DNA of 64,000 bases from Lycorma delicatula (Eukaryota > Arthropoda > Insecta > Hemiptera > Fulgoridae), in NCBI RefSeq assembly GCF_047948215.1, contig NC_134456.1:204054034-204118033 (forward strand), read 5' to 3'. A program made the translations under genes and the position numbers. The notes under the pieces were generated by a model. The model saw only the letters and a list, made by a program, of their open reading frames with translations. It did no database searches and had not been told where the DNA came from. Positions 741 to 40,724 of this stretch are shown piece after piece. How positions within the stretch are numbered: position 1 is the first letter of the stretch; every line of letters starts with the position of its first letter.

Positions 741-741
741 A

Positions 742-18660: not shown

Positions 18661-18662
18661 TT

Positions 18663-18694
<32 letters not shown>

Positions 18695-19370: not shown

Positions 19371-19730
19371 AAATCCCGTACAGCAAAAATATTGGTACAT
19401 ATGAATAGGTTTACAGGAGCTAAATGTTAATGAAAACATGTAATATTATTCAAACTGGATAAAAATATTAAATATTAACGAAGTTGTACGTTCTGGTTTA
19501 GAGAACTATTATTTTTTTTATTTTAGCATTTTCAGAATTAAAGAAATAACAATTTATTTTACAAAAATCCTTTGCACGTTTTAAAAGTTGTAAAACTCTA
19601 CCGAATGCTTTTGAGAACTTAGTTTTGAAATTTTGCAAAATTGTACAAAAATAACTTTTCCGATAATGAAGGAATCTTTCACTTATATATATACAAATAT
19701 ATATATATACATACAAAAGAGTAATCAACA

Positions 19731-21000
19731 TAAAAGAGGCCCCAGCACTTTATGAAGTCTGTAAGTAATAGTTTATTGGCAAACCCTTTCATAATAATTT
19801 ATAGAAGGTATTGAAAATTTTGTCCTTCCACTTCTATGATATTCCTGACCAAGATCCACTTCACCTTCCTGGCTATTCTTGTTAGTTGTACCCTCTTTAT
19901 TTCCTGGTTTGCACTGGTAATGCTTGACTTAAATTCCTGCAGTGTGTGTAGATTTCTCCTTTAAACAATTTCTTTTAAAATTTCATCCCCACAGAAAGAA
20001 GTCTGATCAGGGGATCTTGAAAGCCGCAATCCTTTAAAAATAATTTCTTCCATCAAAAAAATCCTATAGCATCTCCATAGAACAGCGAACTATATGGCAA
20101 ATGGCGCTGTCCTGTTGAAACCAGGAGTCACGATCTTCTTGAAGTAAGGTTATCAAGTTTGAATAATTTCTTGATCGACAGCCACATTCAGTTTTTTTTT
20201 TAAAAAACAAAGGGTCATATTATTAGTCGCCTTGAAACCGCACACTATACGACTATTTTTTGTGGGTGTAGGAGAGGTTCAAAAAAATGTGCAGGTTTTT
20301 AGTACCTCACCTTGGTGAAACCAAGCTTCTTCTGTAAAAAATACTTGATTTAAAATGCCAGTATTGCCTTTAATGAAGTTCTGGAATTATTGGCAATAGT
20401 GAACCCTTTTAACTTAATCAACAGTATAAGATTTCCATAAGTAGTTAGCTTATGGAAAACATGCATTCGATACAAATAGCATTTCGGAATTCTCCTCACT
20501 GCAGTGTGGGCTAACTAGTGAAACACTTTTTTTCGGCTTAAAATACGCAAACATTTATGACATTATGATCTTATGACTGCCGCTTTAATGTCTTGTATGA
20601 CCTGCGTCGTTAAAACTGACCTGTGTCGGACACGTTTCTTTTCTAACACCGAATCTGTTTCACGAAATGTTTTGGTGTTCCTTTTCAAATTTCTCCCTAA
20701 ACATTCGCAGAAAGGTAACATGAGATTTCGTTTCTAATTAAGTTTCCATCACGAATACAGGTTCTTCAACAGTTAACCGCATTTTAACAAACAACATACG
20801 ATTATGCAAACTTGTTCTAAAGCAAATGCTCGACAAAGACTGGCAATACTCAAATGTGCAGGCATAAATAGTTCTTCCCAAACCAGCTCCAGTCGTAGCA
20901 ACATCTTCCACATTATTTTACCCATCTCATATCAATATATGCATTTTAACAAAAATAAGATGCATTTAGTATAAACCACTGAGTGATGGGGGTCTCTTAA
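19731..21000 (-). mobile_element. Tc1/mariner-like transposon, both ends visible
   Basis: The ends form imperfect terminal inverted repeats: AAGAGGCCCCAGCACTT at 19734-19750 against AAGAGACCCCCATCACT read from the other strand, ending near 21000. The 1.27-kb length is usual for a mariner. The transposase relic inside is on the minus strand. Confidence 0.75.
19790..20800 (-). pseudogene. Mariner-like transposase, heavily decayed
   Basis: Blocks of a DDD/E transposase can be read in order on the minus strand. The N-terminus is near 20780 (KMRLTVEEPVFVMET, then TFLRMFREKFEKEHQN). The first catalytic block is FTEEAWFHQGEV near 20330, where the usual Asp is Glu. The second is DSWFQQDSAICHIVRC near 20130, with its Asp intact. 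The third is SPDQTSF near 20010, with Asp intact but the following DFFLWG frame-broken. Numerous stops and frameshifts lie between the blocks. It resembles the transposase at 5590 in layout but is clearly a different and older copy. Confidence 0.8.
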
Positions 21001-21009
21001 GTTGAACAT

Positions 21010-22430
21010 CATGTACAAGGACATTATGAAAATAACAACTGAAAATTAATTTCTGTTAATCATATAAACAACTTGAACAATAACGCACCAAGTTTAACAA
21101 CAACGCACGAATCTTTGATCATTCAATTATCACTTACATAGCGTTTGCTTTCCACATTACTAATTAAATACAAATTAATTAATATAAAACCATACCTTAC
21201 ATGCTAGCAAATTACAAAATATTCCGATCTTAAAACTACAAACTGATCAACAAAACGATAAACTATGTCCGTAACTGCAAGAGTTGTTTTGCAGTCGGTT
21301 TTGTTTAAGAAATTCTTTTTTTTAATAATCTTAATTAATTTTCCTGTGCAGAAATTCAAAATAAATAAAAATTTACTTAATAAGACTTTATAAAAATGGA
21401 TTTTTTAAATTAAAGATGACAGAAAGATAAATTCATTGTTGAAAGAACAATTAATTACAACTATAAGTGACAAATCATAAATTTTAATCAGCCAATGTAA
21501 TTCTAAATGAAGACAAAATAAGAGCAGTACTCTTTTTACAAGCTCCATCAAAATTAATTGACTTATTACAATATAATGCTTCTGTATGTTTTTACATAAG
21601 CTTTATGAAACATGATGATTAATATAATAATTTAAACTAATGATAATAAATAACGAACGAATTTTACATTTTAAAATACCTAATTTGAATTTTAAATTTA
21701 AAAAGTTAATACGCTATTACTTCTAAATTACTTATATAATTTTTTTTTAATATTTTGCTTTAGAAACAGATGTTGGAATAATTTATTCTTATAGAAAGAT
21801 TTATGGATTAAAACAATAACAGATAAGATAAGAGAGGCATTTAACTTATTAAAATGCAGTTTAAACTTTCAATCTTCTTTTTTTTTAGTACACCACTTGT
21901 TAGTGAAACTCGGTTGTAACAAGCCGCGAAATTCAATAGGAAAACTACGAAGTAATAGCCACTTACTGAATACTAATATAAAAAAAAAATAAAACATAAA
22001 AAAATGAATAAAACATACTTTTAACTCTACTCAGTTCAAAATACTAGTTAGTTGATAGTACCTTCTTATACAACAACGGCTGAAAAATTTAGATTCTTCC
22101 ATAAAAAAATTTAAGAAAAAATATAAAATAAATCATTATAATTCAGATTTCTAAAATAGGTTCAATATTTTACGTTAATTAATTAAATTAAATTTGAATT
22201 TCATTAATATATTAAAATTAACTATTATTGTTAACTAATTAGATAAGAATGCGGCTTAATGACTCTCCTTCTAACTTGGAGTTAAATTTAAAAAAAATCA
22301 ATTTATTTAACTATCATTCAAAAAGATTTTGCAGTAAACTTAGCCTAATACACAAAACTAACGTTTTTTAACACGATGATAAACAGTATTCCTTGCAAAA
22401 AATTTAGAAAATTGTTAACGCAAAAGGTAG
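21010..22430. other. AT-rich non-coding stretch
   Basis: Very AT-rich; no gene or repeat family recognised. Confidence 0.55.
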
Positions 22431-22434
22431 GAAT

Positions 22435-22535
22435 GGATAGCTGGACTAGCGACTAGCTTTTTGATTCCCGACCTGTGACTATTGCACTATTACTCCAGTG
22501 TACTATTAGCAGGCCCAACAATGCTTCAGACACCC
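22435..22535 (-). repeat. Repeat F, copy 2
   Basis: On the minus strand this reads GGGTGTCTGAAGCA, a short divergent part, and TGCTAATAGTACA, matching 4536-4580. Similarity then fades into 'gtaatagtgcaatagtc'. Confidence 0.5.
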
Positions 22536-22791
22536 ATGATTTTCCAAACTAGTTGTTAAAAAAGAGGATGGATCCACAAACCACATAACTTTATTCTTCC
22601 TACGCATGCTTGGAATTTGTTGTTAAATAGCCCGTGTTTATTCCTGAGTGCTTGTTTTATATATTTGAACCTCCTTCTATTTATAGCAAGATAACAAAGA
22701 TGAAATAATATTAACTCCACAGATATTACATAAAGAAATCAAACATTTAGTCGTAATCATCAACCACTAAAATTAGTACGAAGTTTACAAT

Positions 22792-23267
22792 GGTACTTAC
22801 GTATTAACGCCACCGCTGCTACAGCTTTATTTAAAAACAAAGTAGTCAATCGGATTTCGGTGTAAAATGGACCGATATACAGTTTAACATAGATTCAAAA
22901 CAGTCTCTTTATTAATTTTATAAATGGTTATTTATATTTATTTATTTTATAAATATAATTTAACCAAACTTAACCTACGCTCGCTAACCTTGACTAATTA
23001 ACAGGAGTGTTTTGATTATTTAAATAACAAATAATTGCAATAATTACTGAATTTATTAAATAAATACTCAAAAAATCATGGTGTTAATTAGTCAAGGTTA
23101 GCGAGCGAAGCGAGCGTAGGTTAAGTTTGGTTATTTATAAAATAAATAAATATAAATAACCATTTATTATAATTAATAAAGAGACTGTTCATTTTCCACC
23201 GAAATCCGATTGACTATTTTGTTTTTAAATAAAGCTGTAGCTGCGGTGGCGTTAATATGTAAGTACC
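22792..23267. mobile_element. Fold-back element / long-TIR MITE
   Basis: The outer ends GGTACTTACGTATTAACGCC and its near-complement ending GTAAGTACC start two arms of about 200 bases. The arms match through CCACCGC..GCTACAGCTTTATT, 'aatcggatttcggtg', GAGACTG, the TAAATAA-rich middle and TTAACCTACGCTCGC to TTGACTAATTA (inner ends near 23000 and 23083). The left arm has an extra ~30 bases (22865-22900), and the right arm has an extra 9-base GCGAGCGAA-type repeat. The loop is about 80 bases of AT-rich DNA. No coding capacity. The motif ACAAT occurs at both outer flanks, three bases off on the right, and may be a target duplication. Confidence 0.85.
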
Positions 23268-23582
23268 TCTACAATATATGAATTAAATTTCTTACTTTAA
23301 TTTTACTAGAATTTTAACACAAAATAAATTAAAAATTGAAAAATGCTCGGAAATGAAAAGTAATTCTTCGCATATTTATTCTGCGTCTTTAAGAAAAAAA
23401 AAATGATACAATTACTACGTCAAAATTTCAGTACGCTTAATTTTTCTTAGTATAAACATAGCGATGAATGAATTTTTACATACCTTTAAAATGATGTGAC
23501 CTGATAATCTGAAGAAATTTAATAACAATAATATTTTTTTAAAAAACTAACACTGATTAATATGTTATTACTTAGCACACAA

Positions 23583-23606
23583 TTATTTTTATTTTATTTT
23601 AAACGT
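23583..23606 (-). terminator. Candidate polyadenylation signal
   Basis: The minus strand has overlapping AATAAAA hexamers about 55-70 bases after the candidate stop codon at 23655. In such AT-rich DNA the hexamer is common, so this only has value with the exon beside it. Confidence 0.3.
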
Positions 23607-23654
23607 ATAGTAATGATAGCGAAATCACTTTCACACACTTAAAAACAGCACAAA

Positions 23655-23728
23655 CTACACTCTGATTTTCTCGTGCTCTTCTCGATAACGAACAGATGGA
23701 TGACACCCTATCATTTGCTGTTGTAGTC
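23655..23728 (-). CDS. Candidate host terminal exon
   Basis: On the minus strand a good 3' splice site (CCTTATTGTTTCAG, ending at 23729) is followed by 2 bases of a split codon and 23 codons, LQQQMIGCHPSVRYREEHEK then IRV and a TAG at 23655-23657. The composition is hydrophilic and charged, unlike the Ile/Phe/Tyr-rich chance frames nearby. A candidate poly(A) signal lies downstream. I do not recognise the protein. The upstream exons would be at higher coordinates. The evidence is one splice site plus a short frame, so chance is a real alternative. Confidence 0.35.
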
Positions 23729-24174
23729 CTGAAACAATAAGGACGTATTATAAGAACATATATACATTACTTTCAATGGTGAATGATTATAGTTTGCATT
23801 AACACTATTATTAAAATACGTCGGTATAAGGGTTAGTTGCAATTAGTAGTAATTTAATTTCTTTCAAATTACTTTTACTGCTTGATCTCAAAACACTTAC
23901 TTGTATGAAATCATCACACAAATAAAAAGCTGGCATTAACTGTACCTTTATGATGCGTTAACTAATATTATTGTTAAAGATAAATTAGAAAGAACACACG
24001 ATTCAGACGTAAGCAAATCAACATAAAAGTCAAATCTAAACATAAAAAATACCCAAAATGTAAATTAGAAGTCAAAACCTTTGTTAAATGCCATAACCGT
24101 AATGACTGTAGGCGACCTAACATCAAATCACTCCCAATCATTTCTTAACCACTCTCAAGAAAAACAAGTATCCT

Positions 24175-24254
24175 ATGCCAAGTTTATTAGGGAAAGTGAG
24201 GATTGAAGCGGGCAGCATACCATGCCAAGTTTATTGGGAAAAGTGAGGATTGAA
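24175..24254. repeat. Short tandem duplication
   Basis: A 33-base unit, starting ATGCCAAGTTTATT and ending GTGAGGATTGAA, occurs at 24175-24207 and 24222-24254 with few differences (period 47). Confidence 0.8.
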
Positions 24255-24599
24255 CCGGTTCTCTGATGTTTATAACCGAGTCAAATATACTGTTGTATAT
24301 CAGTATGTTAAACCCACCGAAATTCAAGTGGTATTCAGCGTTTAGTATCCCTGCATGTGACACATTCACTCTATTCACTATAGACTGGATGTACAGTCAA
24401 AAAAGCTTTGGAGAGACTGGAGGTACGGTGAAAGAAACTTTGGTTTATTTTTCATAGCTCAGGTATGCATCACTGTCATACCTGACAAGTACTGGGACAG
24501 ATATTTTAAAGCAAAAAATTGCTCCTTTCTATCGAGAAACAATATTTATATATGTACTTGTATATTATTTCTATTCAGTAGGGAAGTCAAAGATTATAA

Positions 24600-25340
24600 A
24601 AAATAACATAATTTAGAAAAAAGTATATAATAAAGATTCCGTAAAATAATATCACATTTATATTGTTTGTCTAGAAAATGCCTGTTTCTTTTTTGTTTTC
24701 GTTTTTTCAAAATTGAGGGCGAACGGATTCAGGTAACACAATGTACAAATAATCTAAGTTACCTTGGTTTTAAGCTGTTCTGTTGCGTTCTCTTTTTCTC
24801 GCCCTTCCCAATTATAGATTCTTCTATAGTTTAATAATTAAATAAACTAGTAGAAATGTACTGGTATTCTAGAAAGATGTCAAATTTTACTTAGTAGGAA
24901 GAAAATTCTTAATTCCCGACGAACGTCTTTATTTCTTAGATGTTCGTTTTTGTACACTATGTCCATAAAAAAACTGAATTCTTGTATCCACATTACTTTA
25001 CTTTCAAGTTTAATCATTCATCTTGTTTTCACTTTCATACATGATTCTGGGAAAAGTAACAGTTTTTTTTAAACTTCACGTATTTATCTTTCTTGCCTTG
25101 TGGTGTAGAGATATTATTGAACAATTATAAGATCGTACGCAACTTTGAAATTTTTTTCCACTTTTATTGAGGGCCAAGATCTAAGAGTAGTAAAGTTATG
25201 TTAAGATTTATTAGCACCTAAAAATGTCAAATTTCTATCAGTTTTCAGCAATAGAAGAATAATTTTAATACGAAATAATACTATCGCAGAAAAATGTTGT
25301 TAACGTAACGAATGAAAGTTACTTACAGTAGTAACTGAGC
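24600..25340. other. AT-rich non-coding stretch
   Basis: No gene or repeat family recognised. Confidence 0.5.
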
Positions 25341-25343
25341 TGA

Positions 25344-25345
<2 letters not shown>

Positions 25346-25394
<49 letters not shown>
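25346..25394. repeat. (TA)n microsatellite
   Basis: About 24 uninterrupted TA units. Confidence 0.95.
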
Positions 25395-25397
<3 letters not shown>

Positions 25398-26133
25398 AGG
25401 AATAAATTAATTTTTTGGTTTATACTATCTGTCCCATTCTTTCTTAGGGTTACAAAAAAAATAATGGCTTTTCAAATCAATTTGCAAATCGATGAGAAAA
25501 ACATTACCAGAACAAACCGGAAACTAGCTAATCATTCATAAAACACATTAGCATTTAATGCAGTTTCGTAATGATACAAGTAAAGTAATAGTTTTTAATT
25601 ATGTCAGTGACAAGGATCGATAAATTAATTAAATCTTTTAACATCTGAATTTCTAAACATGTGCAACAATTCAAGTAGAGACGAGAGTTAAACTGTTGTC
25701 CACAGGTAAGCAGAAGTAAAGTGGGCTTAAACATTATCTGATATTAGAAGGACTTACTACGTTGATAAAGCACAGATTGGATTCAGACAAAAGAGGAATA
25801 AGAGCTAAATTAATGAAAATAACCGTTGAACAAAGCGCACTGAACGACTATAATCCAAGTTGTGAGAATACTTAGAAGGAATCAAAAATGTTTTATAGCA
25901 TAATCATACCGATACAATAGAACAAAAGAAAAGTACAACAGTCATTTTCCATGGATAGTTTTCAATACGACAGCCAATCAACGGCGAAGTTTGTCTACCA
26001 TAAAAAAAAGTGTCTCACAGCTCTATGTCATCAAATATTAACTTTAATTATTTTCTCCATTCAGAGTTTTTTTTGCTCGATTATATCACCACATAATCTT
26101 GAAGCTTGGTCATGGGATATGGAAGTGGAATTC

Positions 26134-26214
26134 TGTAGCGTATGAAAAATGCCATGACTGACCGGGATTCGAACTCGGGACCTCCGGATGAAAGGCAGAG
26201 ACGCTATCACTCCT
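26134..26214 (-). repeat. SINE-A head and B box, 3'-truncated
   Basis: The minus strand reads GAGTGATAGCGTCTCTGCC, 'tttcatccggaggtcccg', the B box AGTTCGAATCCCGGTCAG, then 'catggcatttttcatacgctac' and stops. The tail half is missing. Confidence 0.85.
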
Positions 26215-27021
26215 CTAAGAAGATCGGCAAGAGTAGTACTTCGAGCACAATTTATTTTTTATTGAAATAACCATCAATGCGACTATAACAAATGAATCGA
26301 TATATAAATTATTTGGCGATAGTAAATGTTACTATGAAAACAGGCCTCAAATTTACTTTGGGTAGTGGATTGTGTTTACACTACTAATTACAAAATAATT
26401 CTCTTTTCTTGGAAGTAACGGTATTTCTACGAATTACTGTAGATATTAATATATTAGGAACATGTTATTCATCAGAATTATTTTATTTCTAAGGATTTTC
26501 AAGATAAAGAATTAAGTATTTAACTACCAGATTAGACATTTGATTCAATACTGGATGTACATAAGCAAAGTTCAATTTATTTTTTTATAGCTGTAAAAAT
26601 ACAGCAACATTAGTAAACAAAACCGATTTGATACCACTTCTCGATTTTTTAAAGATTTTATCATTTTAATTTTACATAGATTATAAGGGTAAAAATTGTA
26701 AATTTAGGTAAATAATAAGAATGGGAGGGATTTTTCTGAAAAAAAATCTACTTCATGTATACATCATTTACACACTTTTCTGGTAGTAGAATCCAACTTA
26801 TTACAAATTCAGAAGTGATAATCTTATAGGATGGTAAATAAAAAGGAAATATTTCGGAAGAAACTATTTTCAAATACAGTAATATCGTCATTTGTAAATA
26901 TATGCTTCACAGGATTTTCTGGAAGAATCCAATTTTCTCGAAATTAAAGAGTACCGCCTTTCTTTCTTACACAATTTACTAAGGTGATGTGTATTTGTAC
27001 AATATACAGAACAAAAAAAAG

Positions 27022-27101
<80 letters not shown>
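27022..27101. repeat. Compound (TG)n(TA)n microsatellite
   Basis: About nine TG units run directly into about thirty TA units. The antisense frame through it (Ile-Tyr repeats) is an artefact. Confidence 0.95.
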
Positions 27102-27104
<3 letters not shown>

Positions 27105-27179
27105 AGACTTATTTCTGCGAATCCAGACAGGATTTCTTTCAAAATATGGTATAAGATCTGCTTTATAAACAAAACATTA

Positions 27180-29985
27180 CCATAAAAGAAGAAAAGAGTA
27201 GAGAAGGGAAAAACATTACCAGAAACTATCTATCAGAGACAATGATCGATCGATTAATTAAATCTTTTAACATCTGAATTTCTAAACCATGTTAATAAAA
27301 GAGTTTATCAATATACATGTAATGTTTTAAATTAATGAACTTCGTATAAATCAATAGAGTTAAAAATTTCTAAATACGTTAATATCAATATTTTGGACTA
27401 AAAAAAAGCTTACTGAACTCCATAAAATATTAAAAAAGAAAATTATCTATGTATTAGGAGATCCAACATTACCCAACAAGTTTTAAGTATCTAATTCTCT
27501 TGTGGGGGTTTTTGCCCAGCGAGATACAAGTCAAGGATTCAGAATCTGTAAAGGTCTTCATAACCTTAGCATGGATCCAATCACCTAAAGCTAAAACGTA
27601 AAGAAACCACTGAATATAACTGATCAATATAAGAAAAATTAGTAGCTAACACGAAAGGAACGATTTACGACCAATGGGACCACGAACCAAACAAACCTTA
27701 CTCAAAGTAATCAATTGAAGCATTCCTACGCATTGATCATTTATCCTGTTCTATATTTGAGAATCTTTATTCGGCGTATCCTTACACGATATGGGAACTG
27801 GTACTGATCCACACTGATACAGCGATTTTGGATTGACCATAATTTCAATAACTAAATGCTCCAACAAGTTGCTGTCTTCCGGCTTGAACAATCCAACAGC
27901 AGCTTGACAAATCCAACAACAGAATAGGCACAGACTTCTAAAAAAAAAAACCCTTGCTCATTACCAGAATTATACAGCGTGTAAAAGTACCCAATTAAAC
28001 TATAAAAACCATTCTCATTTTTTCGTTTTATGTCCATGTCTAAATCACTTACGTTATATAAAATAAAATAATTGAAAAAGTAAACTGCGTTTTTAATCTG
28101 TTATCAATGTGATCTGTCCAGGCGTTCGATTGTTATTACAATCCATACCGTTATAAAAAAATAAATAAATAACCAATCTACTGTAATATAACTGAGAAAG
28201 AACATAATAACAAAAAAACAAATTTACGTGAGGATGAGATATATTGCAAAATCAAAACATGTAGCCCATTGTCTTAGCCAATGATTTCCCTCTAATGACC
28301 TTAACTATTTTCCTAATTTCATGGAGGAGTCTGTTTCATATGTACTAAAATATATAAAATTTCCAAGCTCGGTCAAAAATAAATATAGAGTATTTTGTAT
28401 CATATCTTCTGTAGGTTAAGTGACAAGAAAAATAAAAATTAAACTGAATTGTTATACAAAATTAAACTTTAACTACATAAACCACATGCTAAATTAATCG
28501 AGGTCGTAAAAATGATAAACTCGAGCAGTCTGTCTTATCAGAAACAAAATTAATTAAATGTGAATGTGCGTTAATTTAATTAACACATTTATGCAATAAT
28601 TTAATTCATTTATGAATCGCCTAGGAATATTCACATAAAATAAACATTTTATACGCACCAGGTTAAATAATATTTGACGTTACATGCTTTATTAAATATA
28701 TTTGTAAAGTCGGATAAGAGATTTTCTAATTTTTACATATAAATCGTTTTTATTGTATGAAAAGATGACAACACAGTGTTAATGCACGGTCAGTGATTTT
28801 CTGTTTGCTTGAGATGTAAGTCGGTAAATAAGAAGTATCTGCACGTATAAGTTGCATTTAATACTCTGTGGTCATCGGTTGGTATGCAGGTACGTAACCT
28901 ACCTAGGCAGGTAGTCGTGACCTGTTGTGGACGTCAAGGGACATGACTGCTGAGACTATTACGAATCTGGACCTGAACTGGTCTGCCAGTAGAATTTATT
29001 TGCCGATAACGAGATGTCACTAAATCGTCAACCGGTATTTTACCAAATCAGGCATTGGTGAAAAAAAAAGAATCGTTGTTGTATAATTATCATTATACAA
29101 AATAAACGTTTAAAGAAATTTACCTAGTTTTTTATGTCTAAAAAAGGATACTTACAATTCATTCTTTAATTTTCTATTTGCACTTTTAACCAGGAAATTT
29201 AAATGGTGAAGAAGTAATATATATATATATATAGAACATGTAAACTAATATTCAAAGGAAATTTTGTTTTATTTTTTACAAATTTTTGTTGGGATATGTT
29301 GCAACATATATTATTTATTACTATAATTAGAAATAAAAAATTACTGGATTCTTTTATTTTAAGTCACTTACGCTATCTGTCAGCAAACTGGGTTTGATAG
29401 TATGCTGTATTTTTTTAGCTTTTGATCTTTTAATTTCAATATATCACTTCATCTTAAAATGCTACGTCCTCAGCTATTCGATTTATGTATTTTATTCTTT
29501 GTCTTCATTTATAGTTTTTATGTTCAACAAATTCCTATTTAACAATTTTAAATAAATTTAGATGTCTCATCTACCTATTTTCGTCTCTTCAAACACTGCT
29601 ACAAGTTTTTCTTTTCTCGTATTAGTTAAAGCAGTCGTATTTTATCAACCCGCCAAATTTTCAACTTCTTCTAGTAATACATTTTCTAGGCTTTTGTTCT
29701 CTAACAACCACATTTCGATAAATCAATTCTCATTTGACCTCATTCCCATACGGACAGTAAAATAATGTACACGAAATTTATCTAATAATAATTAAAACAT
29801 TGGGTTGTTTTTAATGAAGTTCAGATTTATTAATGTAATATAATCTGCTCACGCACAGACAAAAATGTTTATTACTTATCGTTGACTATCCAGCGAATTA
29901 TTTCTAGATAAAAATTAATAATTCTTACATAGAATTGCACTTAAATAGGAACATTCTGTATGAATTGCCAAAGAAAAGCCTTGAA
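27180..29985. other. Non-coding stretch, one GC-richer island
   Basis: No gene recognised. About 28860-29040 is less AT-rich and contains a stop-free stretch (RDLLWTSRDMTAETITNLDL) on the plus strand between ordinary AT-rich DNA, without convincing splice sites. A (TA)n run lies at 29217-29233. Confidence 0.4.
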
Positions 29986-29993
29986 AAGACTGA

Positions 29994-30215
29994 ATACGAT
30001 TAATAATCATATTACAAAAAAGCTGGCATAGAAAAACTCAACACCAGCTTTCGAAAACAGGGATTTATTTTTTCGCTGAAGAATTATACCGAAAATACCA
30101 AGATAGCTCAGAAGTATTTTGTCAAATCCAAACTATCGAAGACACTACAGATCATGAGGGAAAGCCCTTAGTCGATAAAAGTAAGCTTGATTCTGTCGAT
30201 ATGACCATTTTTTAA
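29994..30215 (+). pseudogene. Unidentified open frame beside bacterial-like DNA
   Basis: After a TGA at 29991 the frame stays open for 73 codons to TAA at 30213. Its second half is hydrophilic and looks protein-like ([43 protein letters not shown]). It has no ATG before the last few codons. A second plus-strand frame over about 30010-30170 is also stop-free, so a frameshift may be involved. It overlaps the 3' end of the NifU-domain frame on the other strand, exactly where NifU similarity ends. I do not recognise it. It may be another fragment of the same foreign insert. Confidence 0.4.
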
Positions 30216-30416
30216 AGTAATAGCTGAACTAGGGCATCCCCTGCATGCCCCATGAAGCTCTAATTTTACCACTCCATTTTCAAATCCTCGATATATTATA
30301 TCACCTCCATCCATGGCGACCGAAGGACGTACACGTGTTTCAATAATTTCTACAATCTGTTGTTCGATTTCAGGTATCTCATCAGAATTATTTATGGCAG
30401 ATTGACCATTTTCCAC
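30168..30416 (-). pseudogene. NifU/Nfu C-terminal domain, bacterial-like fragment
   Basis: The Nfu domain carries or delivers Fe-S clusters, bound by the CxxC cysteines. The frame reads [40 protein letters not shown], then [16 protein letters not shown]: the full family signature including the CxxC. Similarity ends after TLKNG (about 30215); the expected IENMLxxYIPEV-type ending is replaced by sequence overlapping another frame. No N-terminal Nfu domain is seen upstream. The wording VAMDGGDI and GACRGCPSS fits alphaproteobacterial proteins better than animal NFU1, which usually has QEDGGD and GSCTSCPSS. A bacterial IS481-type start lies directly upstream on the same strand. The frame starts with GTG and has no animal start or clear splice sites. 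A nuclear NFU1 exon is the alternative. Confidence 0.8.
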
Positions 30417-30480
30417 TATTTTGGATTGTGAAACGTATTGCCTCTGTCGTTTTGGCGCAGCCGTGTAATATTTGTCCCAT
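30411..30480 (-). pseudogene. N-terminal fragment of an IS481-family transposase
   Basis: From ATG at 30480 (minus strand) the frame reads [20 protein letters not shown] then NS. This closely matches the first ~22 residues of bacterial IS481-type transposases as I remember them (MGQxLHGxAxTTxAxRxxIQ). The match ends after NS, where the NifU-domain frame takes over about 30 codons upstream of its domain. The insertion sequence was therefore cut off near its start and joined to the nifU piece. IS481 elements are bacterial. The fragment is short, but the residue pattern is specific. Confidence 0.65.
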
Positions 30481-30484
30481 CTTC

Positions 30485-31740
30485 CTCTCTTAATGGTAAT
30501 TCTGTATAATATACACCATTACACCCTGGGACTAAACAATTAGGATCATAAAAGTTATACTAAAAAATTCGATTTCGAGAAAATTCGATCCAAAACTACA
30601 GCAACAGATCTTCGCCAAAAGCCACAATAGATATATCCATTCATAAAATTAGTTTCCTTTATGTGATGTTTCAAAAGTATTTTATAAGAATTATAATTCT
30701 TATCCCGAATTAGCTGTGATATAAAGAAAAATGTACTCTTGAAGCGGTTCTGCGAGTACATTTTAACTTATGGTTGAAATAACTCTAAATAACTCCAAAT
30801 AACTCTTCACGCCCGCATACAGAAATAAAGATTCAAATAGAGTTTTTTACACGTAAATTTAAAGTTAAAATTAAATCACTTAAAACATTCTTTAATATGA
30901 TATTAATAACATTTTTAATTTATAGTCATAATTGGTGTAAGTCATTAAACGAGATAAACCAAGTACACATGAAACTAACAGAGATGAACTTCTATATACA
31001 ACGGTTTAATAAAAACTGCACAAAATACGTAACATCAGGTATAAATAAAAAAAAAAAAACATAACAACCGAAATAATGAAAGACCAATTCTACTTCTTTA
31101 ATACGTGTAAACCCGGTTCGGTAACAAAATATCAATAACTAAGAACACAAACTACAATCAGAAAAAATTATATACGAAATAATTATGATGTATTATAGTT
31201 ATAAATTAAAAAAATGAAAAATCGATGAAACACATTTCTTAGTATTTTACACGAATAAAATACATGTAACTTCATGATACATTAGACCTTGTGGGAGGGG
31301 GGGGGGGTTAGTCAAAGAGCAAGGCTAATCCTTCACTTTTATGAACTTAAACAAAACAAATGATCTACCATTATTCTAGTTATAAATGTTATTGGCAAAA
31401 AAATAGTTTTTTAGTGCTATTTTAGAAAGCGTGTTATTAAGTTTTAACACCTTAAGATAATTTATAATGCAACTATTCGTAATACATGATAAAGCGTACT
31501 CGAAATATAACACTAAATGTAAATAAGTTGTTTAAGTAAACAGAGTCACGCAAATTCCGAATAACATCATTACAATTAGTTAAACAAGTTTCACAACAAA
31601 TTCAAAATCTGCCGTTTAAAACAGGTAATCCTTGTTAAACTTGTCTTAGTGTCAACAATGGTAAACTAGCAAGCTACGCTTCTTCGCTAATATTTATTAG
31701 TGAAATAAATTACTCTACTTTTTTCCTACATATGTACATC
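30485..31740. other. AT-rich stretch, origin unclear
   Basis: A 68-residue minus-strand open frame at 30555-30761 has no recognisable motif but lies directly upstream of the IS481 fragment and could also be foreign. The rest is AT-rich with a run of 11 G at 31297-31307. No other feature recognised. Confidence 0.4.
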
Positions 31741-31744
31741 TCAT

Positions 31745-32370
31745 TTTTACTTCTTTGTACGAAGTAAAGGAAGTATTGCGATTGCGAAAAATTTCGGTTA
31801 TCAGTTTTCAACGGAAATATCCAGTTTTTTAATTTCGGCGTGATGTCTGTACGTACGTATATACTACGCATAACTCAAAAACGATTAGCCGTAGGATGTT
31901 GAAATATAGGATTTAGGGCATCTACTTGTGCACCTCCCCTTTTAATTGCAATCGACTGAAGCAAAATGTCCAAAAAAGCCCAAAATTCAAAAAGATTGGA
32001 TTTTGGACTTTTTCTTAACTGCAGTAATAAGACCTAATTGAGAGCTTTTCAACGATATTTCATAAGCAGTACTTATTTTCATTGGTTCCACAGTTATAGC
32101 CAAATAAAATTTTAATCAATGAAATATTTGCACGTCGGTTCAATCCGAGTCAATCTCCTTTTTTTTAAATTTAAATATATTGATTTATTAATAATTATTA
32201 ACTTCTGATTGTAAACAAATTTTTACGATACATAATAATTCAATAATGAAAAAATATAAGAAACGTTATCAATGAAATAAAACTTTATGTACTTTTCATT
32301 TTAAAGAAATGTGTATATGTAATGTATAAGGCGTAGAAGGAAGTCATATGGTGCCCACATTAGATTTTTT
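31745..32370 (+). repeat. Repeat P, near full length
   Basis: The start TTTACTTCTTTGTACGAAGT is followed by AAAGGAAGTATTGCGATTGC, 'atttcggcgtgatgtctgtacg', CGCATAACTCAAAAACGATT, AGCCGTAGGATGTTGAAAT, 'cttaactgcagtaataag', AGTTATAGCCAAATAAAATT and a degenerate B box (GGTTCAATCC). The end lies near 'gtgcccacattagat'. Length is about 620 bases. No coding capacity. Other copies are at 5069, 33905 and 43834. Confidence 0.85.
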
Positions 32371-32397
32371 AAGTCTACAAAGGGTAGACTTGCGCCG

Positions 32398-32510
32398 TCC
32401 TCCGTGGCACGAATGGTAGCGTTTCGGCCTTCACACGCTAAAAAAAAAACTGTCATTCATCTCAGCCTTTGAAGTAATACCTAGCGGTGGTCCCGGAGGT
32501 TAAAAAAGAA
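32398..32510 (+). repeat. SINE-A with internal deletion of the B box
   Basis: The head CCTCCGTGGCACGAATGGTA, 'gcgtttcggcctt' joins directly to CACACGCTA of the body, omitting the segment that carries the B box. The tail GGTGGTCCCGGAGGTTAAAA is intact. The junction is at a shared TCA/CA, consistent with a short-homology deletion. Confidence 0.85.
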
Positions 32511-32606
32511 ACAAAGGGGGAAACTGAACAAATAGGGAAACGATCAAAAAATAAAATTACGTTTTTAGTTTTAACCGTTAAAAGGTTAAGGTTAAGCGCC
32601 CCCACC

Positions 32607-32635
32607 AAAAAAAAAAAAAAAAAAAAAAAAAAAAA
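32607..32635. repeat. Poly(A) run
   Basis: An uninterrupted 29-base A tract follows 'gcgcccccacc'. It could be the tail of an unrecognised retro-inserted sequence on the plus strand. Confidence 0.9.
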
Positions 32636-32834
32636 CATAAAGAGCAATTAAAATTTGACTTATGATAATCACGATCATAAAAATCGAGTATGGAAACAAT
32701 TAAAGACTAAACTTTTTTCTTTTAATTGATCGCAAGAATTTATATCTAAGAGCAAAATACGCGGCCGACTGAGCCACGAATATGGTCAATTTTAACGCTA
32801 CATTTAAATAATGTAGGTTTTTAGGTAATTTAAT

Positions 32835-32943
32835 AAGAAAGCTTGTAATGGGTATGATTCGACTTCCGGAAAATTTCAACATATCTTCGCGTTTCACATT
32901 CCCAGATCCCAAAACCACCATCAGTTCAAAAGTTTGCATACAA

Positions 32944-32974
<31 letters not shown>

Positions 32975-33610
32975 CTTCACTTTTTTGTAACATGATAACT
33001 GCCGTAATTCTGCACAATTGCTTTCAAATTGATAAATAAAATATAACGACCAAAACTCTCAGTCGAGTTCGTTAATGGGTAAATCGGACCATGGGGGTGA
33101 AAAGTGGGGCTTTTTCGAAAGCAAAATATTGCTATAACGTTTTTATTGAATAAAATACCAAATTCGTTTAAAGTTCCGACTATTATTTGGATAAGAGTCT
33201 AAAACTTATCTTAGTAAAGTTTTTTGATATCACCAACCACTGGTCCACGGGGTGGAAAAAATGGGGTTTCGAAGATAAAAAAATTCATACCTCCCTTAAT
33301 AGGCACATCATCGAATCGGTTTAAAGTTGTCGTTAGTCCTCTAAACATTACCTAAAACTTTTGTCCGAAACAATTTTTGATATGACCAACCCTTACGGAA
33401 AGGGAAAACCAATATACTGCTGGAATTGTAAGAAGATGGGGCTGTCGTATGCTAAACATGTGAAACATTTTTTCACATGCAACCATTGTCGTATTGAGTA
33501 AATTTGAAGTTTTTTTTAACTTTAAGGTGGAAATCTTTTTTATCCCCTACTTAGCACCGATGAAATCTACCTCCGCCTTCCTGCGTGCCGAAAGGGATTT
33601 TGTTTTACCT
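32835..33610 (+). repeat. Repeat T, copy 1
   Basis: This ~775-base sequence recurs inverted at 36632-37400. Shared landmarks are TCGCGTTTCACATTCCCAGA, a (TA)n run at 32946-32974, AATCGGACCATGGGGGTG, 'ttgatatcaccaaccactgg', TTAATAGGCACA, GTCGTTAGTCCTCTAAACAT and AACTTTAAGGTGGAAATC. No coding capacity. Family unknown to me. Confidence 0.85.
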
Positions 33611-33845
33611 TTTACGTCAGAGTCAATTTGCCACACCTTTTTTTATTCTACTGTACAATTCTATGCAAAATTTTAAAGCTTTTCGTTATAAACGTGGGAA
33701 TAGTTTATTTTATTTTTTGACGGGATGATGACAATCTGTCATTTTGTTTTTTTTTTCACGATTATAAATTTCTGTTAAAGAAGAGGTATGAGGAGGTAAA
33801 GAACAAGGTTAGCAACCATAAGTTAATATAACTTAATAACTCCTG

Positions 33846-33893
33846 CCGGGCTTCGTGGCGCGAGTGATAGCGCTCGGCCTTTCATCCGGAAGT
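33846..33893 (+). repeat. SINE-A head, fused to repeat P
   Basis: CTTCGTGGCGCGAGTGATAG, 'cgctcggcctttcatccgga' is the tRNA-like head only. The B box and body are absent. The match passes within a few bases into the middle of repeat P. Confidence 0.8.
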
Positions 33894-33904
33894 CTTGAAA
33901 GCTT

Positions 33905-34362
33905 CAACTTTCAAAAGCTTTAATTTTTTCAAAACCCAAAACATTTGGATTTTGAACTTTTTCTTAACTGCAGTAATAAGCCCTCATTGAGAGATTTTCA
34001 ACGATCATAAGTGGTATTTAGTTTCACTGGTTCCAAAGTTATAGGCGAATAAAAGTTTAATTAATGAAATTTTTGAACTTACAAGAGGAAGGCACATCGG
34101 TTCAAATCAGACTTTATCTCCATTTTTTAACTTTTTTAAAAATTTAAATATATTAATTTATTAATAAATTATTAACCTCCGATGTAAAAAAAATAAATAA
34201 AAAGATAAATAATATTTCAATAATAACAATAAAAATAAAATATGAAAAAATCAGAAGTTATTAATGAAATAAAATTTTATGTACTTTTCATTTAAAAAAA
34301 AAAAAGTGAATATGTAATTTATAGGCGCACACGGAAATCATGTAGTGTACACATGAATTTTT
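33905..34362 (+). repeat. Repeat P, 5'-truncated
   Basis: From about 33930 (TTTGGATTTTGAACTTTTTC, 'ttaactgcagtaataagccc') to 'cacatgaatttt' the sequence follows repeat P, with the B-box position degraded to GGTTCAAATCAG. The first ~200 bases of P are missing and replaced by a SINE-A head. Confidence 0.8.
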
Positions 34363-34379
34363 AATTTATTTATAATGCG

Positions 34380-35095
34380 TATAGTAAGCAGTGTTCTACG
34401 ATATTACTATTACGATACATATAATATAAAACTATACGGTGTATTTCTACAGTATACAATATTCTAAGAAGAGTATCAAATGATTAGTTATAAATGTTGA
34501 GATCAAAATTTGTAAAATTGAATAATTTTCCAAAACATTTACTACTGATTTTTTATTTAATAACTGGTTTTTTCTATCCCTTTTGAAGCGACGCCTATTC
34601 ATGATAAAGAAGCATGTAGGTCAATAACAATAGATCTTTGACGATATGCTGTAATTTTTATGTCGCTGTTCTGATTTAATTAGAGAATACCGTACTAAGC
34701 AGAATACATTTTACCTAATTCACAGGATATTACTCAACACAAATAAGTAACGTCAATTACCGCATTTCATTTTTTAAATTAACGTTTTTTAAAAGTTCAA
34801 AATATAATAAACAGTACTGCAATTTATGAAAAAAAAAATTATAATTAACGAATTAAATTACAATAACTAACGTGTTATTACATTAATTAAACGTCATTTA
34901 CAATCTGGTCGGATTTAAATACCCACACTCTTTTAAAAATTAAAAAATAAATCATTCGTATACATTACACCTTCCTGTTTTATATTAAAACTGAACGATA
35001 AAAAGCTTTATATATAATTCAACTTTTCAATACGCTGCCATTTTGATTCAACATTTTTATGTGATATATTAATTAAAATATATTAAAATGATTAA
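34380..35095. other. AT-rich non-coding stretch
   Basis: Nothing recognised. Confidence 0.5.
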
Positions 35096-35102
35096 CATAC
35101 AC

Positions 35103-35640
35103 ATTTTTTACCGACCTTCTCAGAAAAGTACGTTATTACTTTCTGTCTTGGGGGGGGGGGGAGAAAATGGATTTTCCTTAAATTTTGAGGCATGAGGAGT
35201 ACGAAAACAATCACTTAAAATGGAGGTCAAACATTCAATAAACCCGGACGTCCTAGGTCCGAATCCTGGTCAGGGACAGCAATTTTCATACGCTACATTT
35301 TCATATCTCACGCATAAGCTTCAAGCTTATGTGGCGATATCAAGCTAAAAAAAAAATTAGAAGTGCTGTAGTAAAGCATATGAAGTTGTGCATGTGAAAA
35401 TTGGTTAAGTCGTTCTTATGTTATGCTCCAATTAAGGTTGAAAAAATTTGAGCGGGGCAAGTTAGAAGCGTGGATATATAATACTGCAAGTTTGAACTTT
35501 GACGTTTCTTTATCTGCGGTATCTATTATTACCAACATTAAACCAAATTAAAAAAAAAAATGTATGAAAATATTAAAACCAATTAAATTAACGAAAATAT
35601 CGGTGACGAAAACAATTTTTTTTTTTAATTCTGTATAATG
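35103..35640 (+). mobile_element. Composite repeat Q + SINE-like piece + S, locus 2
   Basis: Q is at 35103-35220 (CCGACCTTCTCAGAAAAGTA, a G10 tract, GGATTTTCCTTAAATTTTGA, 'ggcatgaggagtacgaaaac'). A SINE-A-like piece is at about 35245-35310 with a degenerate B box (GGTCCGAATCCTGGTCAGG) and 'cagcaattttcatacgctac'. S is at about 35353-35640 (TTGAGCGGGGCAAGTTAGAA near 35448, 'tgcaagtttgaactttgacg'). The order and orientation are as at 17091-17780. Confidence 0.6.
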
Positions 35641-35649
35641 AACAAATTT

Positions 35650-36625
35650 CTTATAATGTTACTGATATTATGTAAATTTCATGTTTCCAATGCAAACTGA
35701 TCCGTCCCAGTATACTTACCACGCCCGGAAGTGTATAGTATAACCTGTTCTAGCATTCTATGGCTGTACACACTAACTGCACGTTAATGAAAGCAAAGTA
35801 AACACAAATAAAAGGGAAGCTAAAGGCACGTTACACAAAGTAACATATGCGTATAACCACCAGAAAAAACAAGAGGAGATGAAACGAGACTGAATTTTTT
35901 TTCTTTGTAAAAGTAATTTCATACAGTGCACGAGAATACAATTTAATTTTAAAAAAGAAAGACAAGATAATGGCATCAAATACACAAACGACAGCCAAAC
36001 TAAGCCGACTTGGATCTTTTTAAAAAGCTTTTCCACAGTTTTATGATATAATACAATTCGCCTTCTTGAAATGAGACAATAAAATGACGTAGGCCTAATT
36101 TTATTCAGAAAACATGTAGATTATCATATAAATGTAATGAAATAATATCTGTAAAACAGTTTTACTGTTTATTTTATTGGCAATAAATTTAATAAAAAGC
36201 ATAAAGAACAAAGCACATACATCCATCATATAACAGAAGATCTAAAAATTTAAGAAGAAAAAAATGAACCCGAATGTTTGTTTATTATTTTATTGTTTTT
36301 TATGCCAAGCTACAGATCGATTGACTTTTTTACTTTTCTGTATGGTAATGTATACTAATTCCACTGCATACTTTTCTTGTAAATATTGTATCACTCATTT
36401 ATCAGTTGTATACGCTTATGAAGAGTAATTAGGCGTTGCATAAAAACACTTAATTCAATAAGCCTTACTAATGCTGTGCAGACTTTCCGTTTTGAGTAAT
36501 AAATCAGTCTACGTGAGGAAATCTAATGATACATAATTATTTTTATGTATTATTATAACTAAATCTATAGATAAATAAGAAAAAAATAAGATCCTTAAAC
36601 GTAATAAGACAATGAAATTAAAAAA
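35650..36625. other. AT-rich non-coding stretch
   Basis: No gene recognised. An 87-residue minus-strand frame (35773-36036) is Leu/Phe/Cys-rich with no motif and is most likely chance. Confidence 0.5.
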
Positions 36626-36631
36626 GTAATA

Positions 36632-37400
36632 AAAAAATCCCTTTCGACACGCCGGAAGGCGGGGGTAGATTTCACCTGTGCTAAGTAGGGGATAAAAAAA
36701 TTTCCACCTTAAAGTTAAGAAAAACTTCAAATTTACTCAACAAAACAATGGTTGCATGTGAAAAGATGTTTAACATACGACAAGCCCCATCTTAATGCAA
36801 TTCCAGCAACATTTTGATAATCCCTTGTTGTAAGAGTTGGTCATATCAACAATTGTTTTAGATAAAATTTTTCGGTAATGCTTAGAGGACTAACGACCAC
36901 TTTAAACAGATTTTGATACTGTGCCTATTAAAGGAGGTATGATTTTTTCTCTTCGAAACCCCATTTTATCCACCCCCTGGGCCAGTGATTGGTGATATCA
37001 AAAAACTTTACTTAGATAAGTTTTTGTTAGTTTTTTATCCAAAGAATAGCAGGAACTTTAAACGAATTCGATATTTTGCTTAATAAGAAAGTTATAGTGA
37101 TATTTTGTTTTTTTCGAAAAATCCCCATATTTCCACCCCATGGTCCGATTTTGCCAATTAACGATTTCGACCGAGATTTTGGATCGTTATATTTTACGTA
37201 TCAATTTGAAAGTGATTGGCGCAAAATTACAGCAGTTATCGTGTCCACAAGAAAGTGAAATATATATATATATATATATATAAACTTTTGAACTAACGGT
37301 GGTTTTGGGGTCTGGGGATGTGAAACGCGAAGATATGTCGAAATTTTCCAGAAGTCGAAGCATGGTACCCGTTACAATAGGTAGCTTTCATAAGAAAGCT
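36632..37400 (-). repeat. Repeat T, copy 2 (inverted)
   Basis: Reverse complement of 32835-33610, with substitutions and small indels throughout. A (TA)n run at 37260-37282 sits at the same place in the element as the run in copy 1. The two copies could pair across a ~3-kb loop. Confidence 0.85.
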
Positions 37401-37404
37401 ATTG

Positions 37405-38425
37405 TTAAAATAAATTGTAATAAATATTATTGGTGAAAAATAATACAACAGAAGTAATAAAAATTAATCAAATATAGAAATGGATAAAAGTTTAATCATG
37501 TAAAATAAATAATGTATTCAATAAGACCTATTAATCAAAACTTATCTAGACAAGAGTCGCTTAAAATAATGTGTTCATTGCCGTAAGCAAAACGCTAATG
37601 AGTTTCAATCATAATTTGTGGAAAAACATTCAGAAAACGGTCTTGTAAGATTAATTAGTTTAAGAGATGAAACATTTTAATTTAATTATCTTTTTAACTA
37701 AGAAAACGTAAGTTGGATTCCCTACTTTTCAACCTAATTCAAATTTAACATTTTTTTACATGTTTCATGTAAAAAAAAAAAATTATAAAAATTTGTCACA
37801 TAAAATGTCAAATAACTAAATTTTCCCAAGTGTCCTCGCCAAATTTGCGTTTTTTGACAAACGGTTTGTCAGTTATCGGCCACTATTTATGAAATAGATA
37901 TTTAGTCAGGAATAAACATGGCTGTACCCGTACCTGGATGAGGTGAAATTTGTATAGAATAATGTGATTAACCAATTTCACGCCAGAGCGGGCAACATGA
38001 ATCTCCTCTCCCAAGAAAATTATTAGGCGGTGCCTTATCTTACAACCAGCAGCGCACAATAGCATTTACAAAATGCACATTATTAACGTGTGATTATTGC
38101 ATACGGTACGTTCCTCTCTCGAGCAACTAATTAAAATATTTTTCTTAAAACATAATTTCGTCACTGTCAGATAATGATTACTTAATAATTAAGTTAATTA
38201 TTCATTTACACATTTTTTTAATCAGGTTAAAACATTTTCATGGATATTATTCTTGACTGAAATTATTTTAAAACTGATCGATAAGTGAAAATACCGCTGA
38301 TTCAGAAACCAAATTATCCGAGGACAATGAAAACTATACTGAATATACAGAGGTTACTGCAGTATAAGGGATATTTTTAGAAATCTTTTTCTAATGCATA
38401 TTGGCTTAACTACAAATTAGGCAAA
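37405..38425. other. AT-rich non-coding stretch
   Basis: No gene recognised. A 60-residue minus-strand frame (37883-38065) has no motif. Confidence 0.5.
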
Positions 38426-38432
38426 AAAAGTG

Positions 38433-38979
38433 TCAAAAACGGCTACTGAACTTCTGATATACTTCCAATTTTTGAAAAGAAATTATATAAATTAGAAGAC
38501 AATTCAGTGGTAACGAAAATAAGTGCTCCGTGCTCATTAAGTCATACCTAGCACATTCATATATTACATGTATGTGTACGCATTGCAGACACATACGACA
38601 GTCTTTCAGGCCGAATTTATGTGGTGGTCTGCTCCGAAAAAAGCCATTCCCTGAAAGAAATTGCGTTACATACTTGTTTGGCTGTACCCAAGAGTCGTTC
38701 CGCAAATCAACAACATTAGGGAAAAGATCATGCGTAATCGTCCACACTCTTGTCTCATTCCATCTGGCTTGCAACAGGGCTACACCATGCTGTTCTATCC
38801 ACTTTAGTTTCTTCGAAGTCAATTCACCGGATTTCTTAGCATCATAACGCTGTTGTCTCTCAGGCAAAATCAAGTCTATCGGTTTTACGCCTGCGAACAC
38901 CAAGATCGCTTTCCGTGAAATCGTACGGTAACCACCCGTTATCGTTAACAATATAAGGCGTTGAGCCCGTAACAAAATA
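38433..38979 (-). pseudogene. R1-like LINE: C-terminal part of the polyprotein
   Basis: This is the end of ORF2 of an antisense R1-like LINE. Starting at its upstream break it reads LLRAQRLILLTITGGYRTIS, 'RKAILVFAGVKPIDLI', then YVTQFLSGNGFFRSR and a C-terminal CxxC...H...C zinc-binding block (CRMCLQC, H, YEC). The order and wording fit the region after the reverse transcriptase in R1-clade elements. The frame is open to a stop at 38433. The element continues on the other side of the insertion at 38989-39607. Confidence 0.85.
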
Positions 38980-38988
38980 CTCCGATAG

Positions 38989-39607
38989 TATAACAAAATA
39001 TCCCGTTCCTGAGGCCAATTCATTATTGCGATCCTCTGGCAGGTTAGGGAAGCGATCTGCTCAGATCTCGACGGTGGTCCTGCATTAGGAGCTTTTAGCT
39101 TTGAACGTTTTGAGCGGGATTATATATGGGTAGGCAGCCTTGCTCGGTTTCAAGAGAAGGTGGACACACCGCCTTGTGAAGGATGTCAGGCGCTGGCGGG
39201 AAAGATCCATGGTTCATTGGATTATGATCTTACTCAATTTCTGACGGGTCATGGGGGATTCGGGGCCTATCTTTATAAGTTTGGCATAGTTAGCTCGGAG
39301 AAATGCCCGATCTGCGAAATAGAGGAGACTACGTGTCATGTATTTTTCTTCTGCACGAGGTATGTAACGACGAGAAGGGAGTAATAAAATAACATTGGAA
39401 GGGATAATATGTTCCAGCCGGAAGACCTCCAAGATTATGCTAGAAAAGGAGGAATACTGGAAGACGGTGGCAACCTATACAAGAACTGTGATGAAAAACC
39501 TCAAATCATGGGAAGAGTCCCGGATTCGTGCTCGATGCCAGAGCAACCGAATGGGTTACTGGCGGGAGAAATTCCAGTATTAAAACAAAATAAAAATAGA
39601 AAAAAAA
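38989..39607 (+). mobile_element. 5'-truncated LINE copy inserted in the R1-like LINE
   Basis: This plus-strand insert contains the C-terminus of a second LINE: DLTQFLTGHGGFGAYLYKFG, then CPICEIEETTCHVFFFC, a CxxC..H..C block (39160-39384). After a frameshift comes a tail, WKTVATYTRTVMKNLKSWEE to YWREKFQY with a stop at 39581-39583. It ends in an A-rich stretch (39584-39607). TCCCGATAG at 39608-39616 and CTCCGATAG at 38980-38988 flank it as a probable target-site duplication. The antisense host LINE reads on across the insert (...KFKSYRD / YRSILLRAQRL). Confidence 0.75.
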
Positions 39608-39616
39608 TCCCGATAG

Positions 39617-40202
39617 CTTTTAAATTTTAGCTTATCTACCCAAACAGGCACCGCATATAGCAGAATTGCCTCGCAGACCTTACACAAGATATATCGTAGT
39701 CTTAGAATTAAGACCTTCATTGTAATGCCTTCTTCGTCGAATTCCGAAGAAGGCATTACAGGCCTTCTTGTGACGTATTGAAGGTGCTTCTTAAACTGCA
39801 ATTTCTCATCAAGAAACACTCCGAAGTACTTTTGAACATGTACGTACTTATATGTTTGCCTAACACTGATACGCCGACTCGCCTCCTCACAGTCAAACGG
39901 CCTTTGAGGAGCATCATCGAAGAATTCTCTAAACATCATCTTATTTTGATGACCCCACAGCTCAAGTATCCTGCATGCTTGAGTGTCTCGGAATTCAACC
40001 CCCCCCCCCCCACTACGAGAACCTCCTTCGGCCAGCAGGAGCCCTCTTCAGCATAAGCCAAGATGCGGCACCCGCTGGGCAACCTCAACTGCAGAATTGA
40101 ATCAAGCTCCACCACCCACAGTAAGGGTCCCAACAAACTGCCCTGCGGACAACCCTTGGACAGTGTCTTCCCCAGTTCATGGCTGTCCTCGCGGAGCAGC
40201 AC
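39617..40202 (-). pseudogene. R1-like LINE: reverse transcriptase, catalytic half
   Basis: The minus strand reads TLSKGCPQGSLLGPLLW (the conserved block before the active site), LQLRLPSGCRILAYAEEG (active site, 40044-40055), then after frame changes YFGVFLDEKLQFKKHLQYV and ILLYAVPVWVDKLKFKSYRD. The metal-binding YADD is YAEE here, so both catalytic Asp are Glu and this copy cannot be active. Several frames are needed to read it. Confidence 0.88.
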
Positions 40203-40310
40203 ATCCCGACGACTGAAGTAACTTTACATAACCTGCAACTCACACACAGTACAATCTCTCTTCTGTAATTGGTATGTAGCAGAAGGCCACCATAGATTAT
40301 ATTAAATGCC

Positions 40311-40662
40311 TCAGAAATGATTATCCATTAGTAAACCGCGCGAGGACAACCTCTCATTTACACGAAGGTACAGAACTCTTTCAAAAACCTTACCAATAAC
40401 AGGCAGTAACGTCAAGGGACTATATGACGAACTAACAGCAGGATACTTGTCGCCACCTTTAAAGAATAATTTCACAATCCCTTTCTTCCAACACACATTT
40501 ATTATTAAAAACCCGAGCGATAGTTCTCACGCTTACCGCTACCGAGCGAACAAGGAGATCCGCAGTTATCCCATCAAAGCCAGGAGCCTTATCTCCACCT
40601 AGACTACAGATAGCCTGACGCACCTCGGCCTCAGTAATCTTTAGGGAAAGTGCACCCCGCAA
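40311..40662 (-). pseudogene. R1-like LINE: reverse transcriptase, N-terminal half
   Basis: ITEAEVRQAICSLGGDKAPG then FDGITADLL is the usual entry block (K.PG.DGI). After a frameshift near 40480 it continues CWKKGIVKLFFKGGDKYPAV and YSPLTLLPVIGKVFERVLYL, the RPI.LLPV.GK.FE-type block of LINE polymerases. It is degraded but in the correct order relative to the active-site half. Confidence 0.88.
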
Positions 40663-40724
40663 AACTGAGCAACACGCTGATGGTAAACGGTTTCAACTAC
40701 TTCAGTATCATCAGGAGTAAATCG

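Follow-up and report, generated by a model that had tools for sequence, protein, structure and literature searches.

A 910-bp mosaic of Candidatus Tisiphia fragments in insect chromosomal DNA

Where transfers of symbiont DNA to insects are discussed, the usual subjects are large Wolbachia blocks and rescued genes. Wolbachia inserts are common, and those of tsetse fly and filarial nematodes (nuwts) consist of symbiont DNA, largely decaying, in host chromosomes; the available portions of the two reports describe no joins of scraps of the size dealt with here (PMC3998919, PMC12693587). Rickettsiaceae DNA has likewise been found in eukaryotic nuclei, as a Rickettsia insert in the wasp Diachasma alloeum and as partial Ca. 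Megaira inserts in Volvox; the wasp insert was reported as one scaffold, its symbiont genome belongs to the Belli group, and the passages available give no account of a mosaic (PMC6781843, PMC9098888). Nuclear insertion is mentioned as a caveat in a survey of torix Rickettsia (PMC7992394, in excerpt). A different architecture is seen in complex numts and nupts, nuclear inserts of organelle DNA in which donor fragments from distant sites are joined at one nuclear site: blunt joins or microhomologies of 1-7 bp are the signature of end joining, and concatenation of the fragments is thought to precede or accompany end joining at the break (PMC6215612, in excerpt).

The insert described here has the architecture of complex numts and nupts, but its donor is a bacterial symbiont rather than an organelle. 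With nuwts it shares symbiont DNA in a host chromosome; unlike them, it derives from Tisiphia (Rickettsiaceae) and its unit is a mosaic of ~90-220 bp scraps. It resembles the wasp and Volvox inserts in being Rickettsiaceae DNA in a eukaryotic nucleus, and differs from the wasp insert in being a mosaic. Here the giver is a symbiont other than Wolbachia, and its confetti-sized pieces meet at a single site, as has been described for organelle DNA. This suggests that filler for break repair can be drawn from any DNA that germline cells contain. No multi-fragment Tisiphia mosaic was found in the literature on Tisiphia and Rickettsia nuclear inserts or on mosaic symbiont inserts, as far as its text was available, and the accessible parts of PMC4675112 and PMC9894559 contain nothing on mosaics.

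Composition of the insert and sources of its pieces

The window, by which we mean the whole 64,000-nucleotide stretch of DNA analysed, belongs to a contig of 238.7 Mb in a host assembly of 2.20 Gb and 14 contigs. Near its middle a sequence-only reading had noticed a bacterial-looking NifU domain. DNA searches of bacterial genomes place this domain in an insert of 910 bp, with some 350 bp of further bacterial DNA on either side of it, made up of at least six Tisiphia-derived pieces of 86-218 bp (Table 1). The six tiles cover 868 of the 910 bp, and the best match of each in Tisiphia-group genomes has an E value of 4e-37 or lower.

Table 1. Pieces of the insert, in window coordinates, with their closest matches in bacterial genomes
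Feature	Position	Strand	Length	Best-strain identity	Match or basis
Whole insert, Candidatus Tisiphia mosaic in host DNA	29860..30769		910 bp		DNA searches of bacterial genomes
T1	29860..30077		218 bp	97%	G013:C1:1297301-1297518 (91% to G016:C1:225097-225319)
T2, internal piece of prophage terminase large subunit gene	30077..30205	+	129 bp	92%	G016:C1:357411-357539
T3, nfuA, both gene ends missing	30204..30414	-	211 bp	95%	G016:C1:464541-464751
T4, insertion-sequence end	30415..30538, perhaps to 30568	-	124 bp	95%	G014 copies
Filler	30539..30577		39 bp		contains AAAATTCGAT
T5, RDD-family gene start	30578..30680	-	103 bp	98-99%	G010, G013, G016
T6, dispersed Tisiphia repeat, two predicted hairpins	30684..30769		86 bp	100%	G016:C1:678571-678656

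Breaks fall inside genes. T1 holds the last 49 bp of the frame of a MerR-family regulator gene, the remainder being mostly DNA behind that gene. The source gene of T2 matches the terminase large subunit family phrog_2 (E 8.5e-15), its best match being phrog_2472, of unknown function; it has no Pfam match, and the gene next to it matches the terminase small subunit family phrog_4044. T4 is taken from a multicopy insertion sequence whose transposase is of the rve (integrase core) type, and comprises the 5' end of that element together with upstream DNA. It matches insertion sequences of G014 and G001, with at least 27 copies in G014 and none in G016 among the matches listed, and one G014 copy aligns with gaps as far as 30568, so that T4 may reach into the filler. 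T5 also includes the final 29 bp of the cytochrome oxidase subunit I frame that precedes the RDD-family gene.

The T6 repeat is of high copy number, with 65 matches in 800 kb of G016, part of them partial and 23 of them 75 bp or longer; its predicted fold has a z score of -2.66, and it is presumably reminiscent of Rickettsia palindromic elements. No RNA reached the gathering score in an Rfam search of the window, and a tRNA search at five bacterial source loci found none.

The donor genomes G010, G013, G014 and G016 belong to the same genus group as G004, of which 16 genomes were searched. The loci of G004, G002 and G003 identify them as RiCimp, Pante1 and Lappe4, strains classed as torix limoniae, 'Ca. 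Tisiphia' (PMC9098888, in excerpt); the best donors are thus of the Candidatus Tisiphia group, not Wolbachia. Five places spread over the 1.66-Mb contig of G016 account for T1, T2, T3, T6 and T5 (at ~225, 357, 465, 679 and 1233 kb, respectively), and T4 comes from the insertion sequence of other strains. As the best-matching strain varies from tile to tile, the tiles probably come from a strain outside the genome set that is related to G016, G013 and G010 and that carried the insertion sequence not listed in G016.

Joins between the pieces and the route of insertion

In alignments carried through the internal joins, identity ends sharply at each. T1 and T2 share 1 bp, T2 and T3 share 2 bp and T3 and T4 none, while fillers of 39 bp and 3 bp stand at T4/T5 and T5/T6: blunt ends, microhomologies within the 1-7 bp range and short fillers, the forms found in complex insertions. 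The longer filler holds a 10-bp word, AAAATTCGAT, that recurs 2 nt into T5. Template-copying end joining is the work of polymerase theta. A copy of AAAATTCGAT would fit that process, though only suggestively, since among 1977 random host 39-mers 54 resemble their surroundings no less closely than the filler does. Beyond the ends of the insert, CTCACGCACAGA at 29848-29859 and TTCACGCCCGCATACAGA at 30806-30823 are, by eye, imperfectly alike and flank it, perhaps by decayed duplication or by chance; we rejected them as a target-site duplication, the likeness being imperfect and the right-hand copy beginning 36 bp beyond the insert end.

Breaks within genes, short pieces, distant sources, minimal shared sequence and short fillers match what is seen in complex numts and nupts, and for this reason we propose an end-joining path. 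A Tisiphia strain related to G016, G013 and G010 would have supplied fragments of 86-218 bp from six places; end joining would have linked these together and into a double-strand break, in the host nucleus and in the germline, the symbiont DNA serving as filler in repair of the broken chromosome, and the patchwork would have been inherited since. We put the probability of such a complex nuclear insertion at about 0.87.

The age of the event bears on the divergence of the tiles from their nearest donors. Over the 618 aligned bases of T1, T3, T5 and T6 (for T3, at private sites only) ~13 differences are counted, or ~2%; T2, with 10 of 129, and T4, with 5 mismatches and one gap in 125, were excluded because their sources are multicopy. 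For the four tiles counted, change since transfer can be no greater than this figure, which includes differences between donor strains and may reflect strain difference rather than age. Short symbiont scraps of this kind could date past infections.

The same joins could have been made earlier, in the bacterium, if the donor already carried the mosaic, on a plasmid or in a region that had been rearranged or had degraded, and this moved into the insect as one piece. Tisiphia genomes would be a plausible setting for this, being rich in repeats and insertion sequences, as the copy numbers of T6 and T4 show; torix genomes are reported to have many transposases and extreme breakdown of gene order, and RiCimp carries plasmids (PMC9098888, in excerpt). 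In some genomes, moreover, T6-type repeats lie 0.4-1.5 kb from other tile sources: among the matches listed, the nearest approach in G016 is a 74% T6-like repeat ~0.4 kb from the source of T1, and in G010 and G014 such repeats stand ~1.4-1.5 kb from T5 and T4, respectively. Against pre-joining, no two tiles lie end to end as in the window among the matches listed in the 16 genomes, and it is on this account that we disfavour it. Since the searches scored the best 28-40 candidates per genome, other matches may have been crowded out by copies of T6. In addition, nfuA is cut on both sides in the insert, yet the same stretch is present in 14 of the 16 genomes (80-95% identical), and the mean tile length of ~145 bp is, in our judgement, short for bacterial rearrangement. 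We regard a mosaic formed in the donor bacterium as unlikely.

Symbiont reads misjoined into an insect contig could also bring bacterial and insect DNA together, the more so as living Tisiphia may have been present in the sample. Misassembly would however hardly yield, in our view, six short and sharply joined tiles, drawn from sites far apart, within a contig of 238.7 Mb; 5 of the 211 sites of the nfuA piece differ from all nine bacterial genomes compared; and further short pieces occur on host contigs C6, C8 and C12. An assembly chimera or contamination is accordingly very improbable.

The truncated NifU domain

The motifs on which the sequence-only reading was based are present in a stop-free minus-strand frame of 116 aa (30168-30518), which includes both C-x-x-C and TLKNG and matches the Pfam NifU profile (PF01106) over frame residues 55-105 with E 4.3e-19. 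The match covers profile positions 1-51 of 67, so that the domain is cut short, and no match to Nfu_N is reported by Pfam in the frame; the truncation and the missing N-terminal domain had both been recognized from the letters alone. The corresponding G016 gene has Nfu_N as well as NifU. The Tisiphia nfuA match begins one base before, and ends two bases before, the stretch assigned to the domain in that reading (30205..30416). It amounts to 70 codons and includes most of the NifU domain.

That this DNA is bacterial rather than animal in character, as had been proposed, is borne out by its identity to G016 nfuA, the blastn E value of 1.3e-92 being far beyond chance, and the suggested Rickettsiales donor can be narrowed to the Candidatus Tisiphia group. 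Among the best 120 of 3391 protein matches, the first is a NifU-family protein of the Candidatus Tisiphia endosymbiont of Neophilaenus lineatus, 93% identical across 60% of the frame. Of the nine genomes compared, G016 alone shares with the window its bases at two sites, 30253 and 30241, which give H and R in the protein. In a protein tree of 29 rows and 70 columns the rows nearest to the fragment are two of Tisiphia type (P0001, P0002), and the NFU1 rows, the animal ones being mammalian only, lie far from it. The fragment falls in no well-supported set; support in the tree is weak. No placement within arthropod NFU1, which would have told against a bacterial origin, was thus seen among these mammalian rows.

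A search of the host assembly with the intact bacterial NfuA protein returned the window piece and one other, a 42-residue stretch of host contig C1 at 57% identity. This second stretch (C1:343107875-343108000) is probably the host's own NFU1-like exon. The frame in the window was therefore rejected as a host NFU1 exon, the NFU1-like exon being on another contig, and splicing of the frame to NFU1 exons is unlikely for the same reason. An intact transferred nfuA was rejected as well, in view of the truncated NifU profile and the lack of an Nfu_N match.

What remains of the bacterial protein, an iron-sulfur carrier composed of Nfu_N and NifU domains, is 70 internal residues. The symbiont origin suggested for this DNA thus stands, but what was transferred is one of six scraps in a mosaic rather than a gene or a domain. 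Lacking the N-terminal domain as well as the beginning and the last part of the gene (and with them the C-terminus and a full NifU domain), the frame is most likely non-functional, one dead scrap, and none of the tiles is presumed to be expressed. The frame runs beyond both ends of the nfuA piece because the adjoining tiles happen to be open in the same frame: it spans the end of T2, all of T3 and most of T4. Gene finders can be misled by such scraps: a conserved motif in an open frame of 116 codons arises here as a by-product. Co-option of the piece as an insect exon or small protein, for which that open frame and the intact C-x-x-C might be adduced, is scarcely credible for a frame with an incomplete NifU and no Nfu_N that crosses phage-gene and insertion-sequence DNA, in which two of the five private changes alter the protein, and in a host with an NFU1-like exon elsewhere.

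Further Tisiphia-like scraps and the host surroundings

A search of the host assembly (2.2 Gb) gave a single occurrence of the 910-bp mosaic, and on this ground we rejected the insert as a copy of a host repeat. The T4 piece recurs once more in the host, at G000:C6:98804596-98804720, with 94% identity. When 20 kb of G016 around nfuA was compared with the host assembly, nine matches were obtained, the window piece (95%) among them. Two others are strong: 94 bp at G000:C12:9460738-9460831 (97%), in a VirB2-like gene, and 98 bp at G000:C8:66769599-66769696 (95%), in atpE; gene names in the 20-kb stretch were assigned by eye from translations. The window, C12 and C8 matches are taken as Tisiphia inserts. 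The weaker matches (six of the nine) range from 69 to 83% identity. One of 98 bp on C1, to a nuoG-like gene (83%), and four to a nuoH-like gene (72-77%) may represent host or mitochondrial homologues, not inserts. The sixth, 519 bp at G000:C1:15153482-15154000, is 69% identical to a Tisiphia hemW-like gene; it may belong to the host's own genes or stem from an older bacterial insertion.

The 20-kb probe, 1.2% of the bacterial contig, thus gave, besides nfuA, two matches of at least 95% on other contigs. Scaled to 1.66 Mb, two per 20 kb corresponds to ~165 pieces, with a Poisson range of roughly 20-600 from the one stretch sampled. From this scaled yield we lean, if only slightly, towards a host genome in which a hundred or so very short Tisiphia scraps, or more, are scattered, many of them in mosaics, symbiont DNA being a routine filler in germline repair. 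If so, the scraps would form a fossil record of infection and of germline break repair.

Host DNA lies on both sides of the insert. Against four close genomes (at most the best 40 candidates per genome), 9860-29859 and 30770-64000 gave no Tisiphia match with E below 1.4e-4, the best match for 30770-50769 in four Tisiphia-group genomes having E 3.7e-4; positions 1-9859, compared with 23 bacterial loci and half of G016, gave nothing comparable to the tiles either. The window and 20 kb of adjoining host DNA, searched against 800 kb of G016, gave matches to four tiles; this half excludes the source of T5, and T4 is not listed in G016. A single 44-bp match (E 0.003) occurred in the right adjoining host stretch, and the reversed 84-kb host sequence, used as a control against half of G016, gave no hits at E 0.01. 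The insert with its 1-kb flanks has no further match longer than 48 bp elsewhere in the window.

Two features of the surrounding DNA may be recorded. An arthropod-type transposase frame lies at 5700-6377, its best named relative among 101 being from the planthopper Nilaparvata lugens (51%), which fits an insect sequence. Long frames at 38433-42208, in a region of higher GC, are non-LTR retrotransposon-like by eye.
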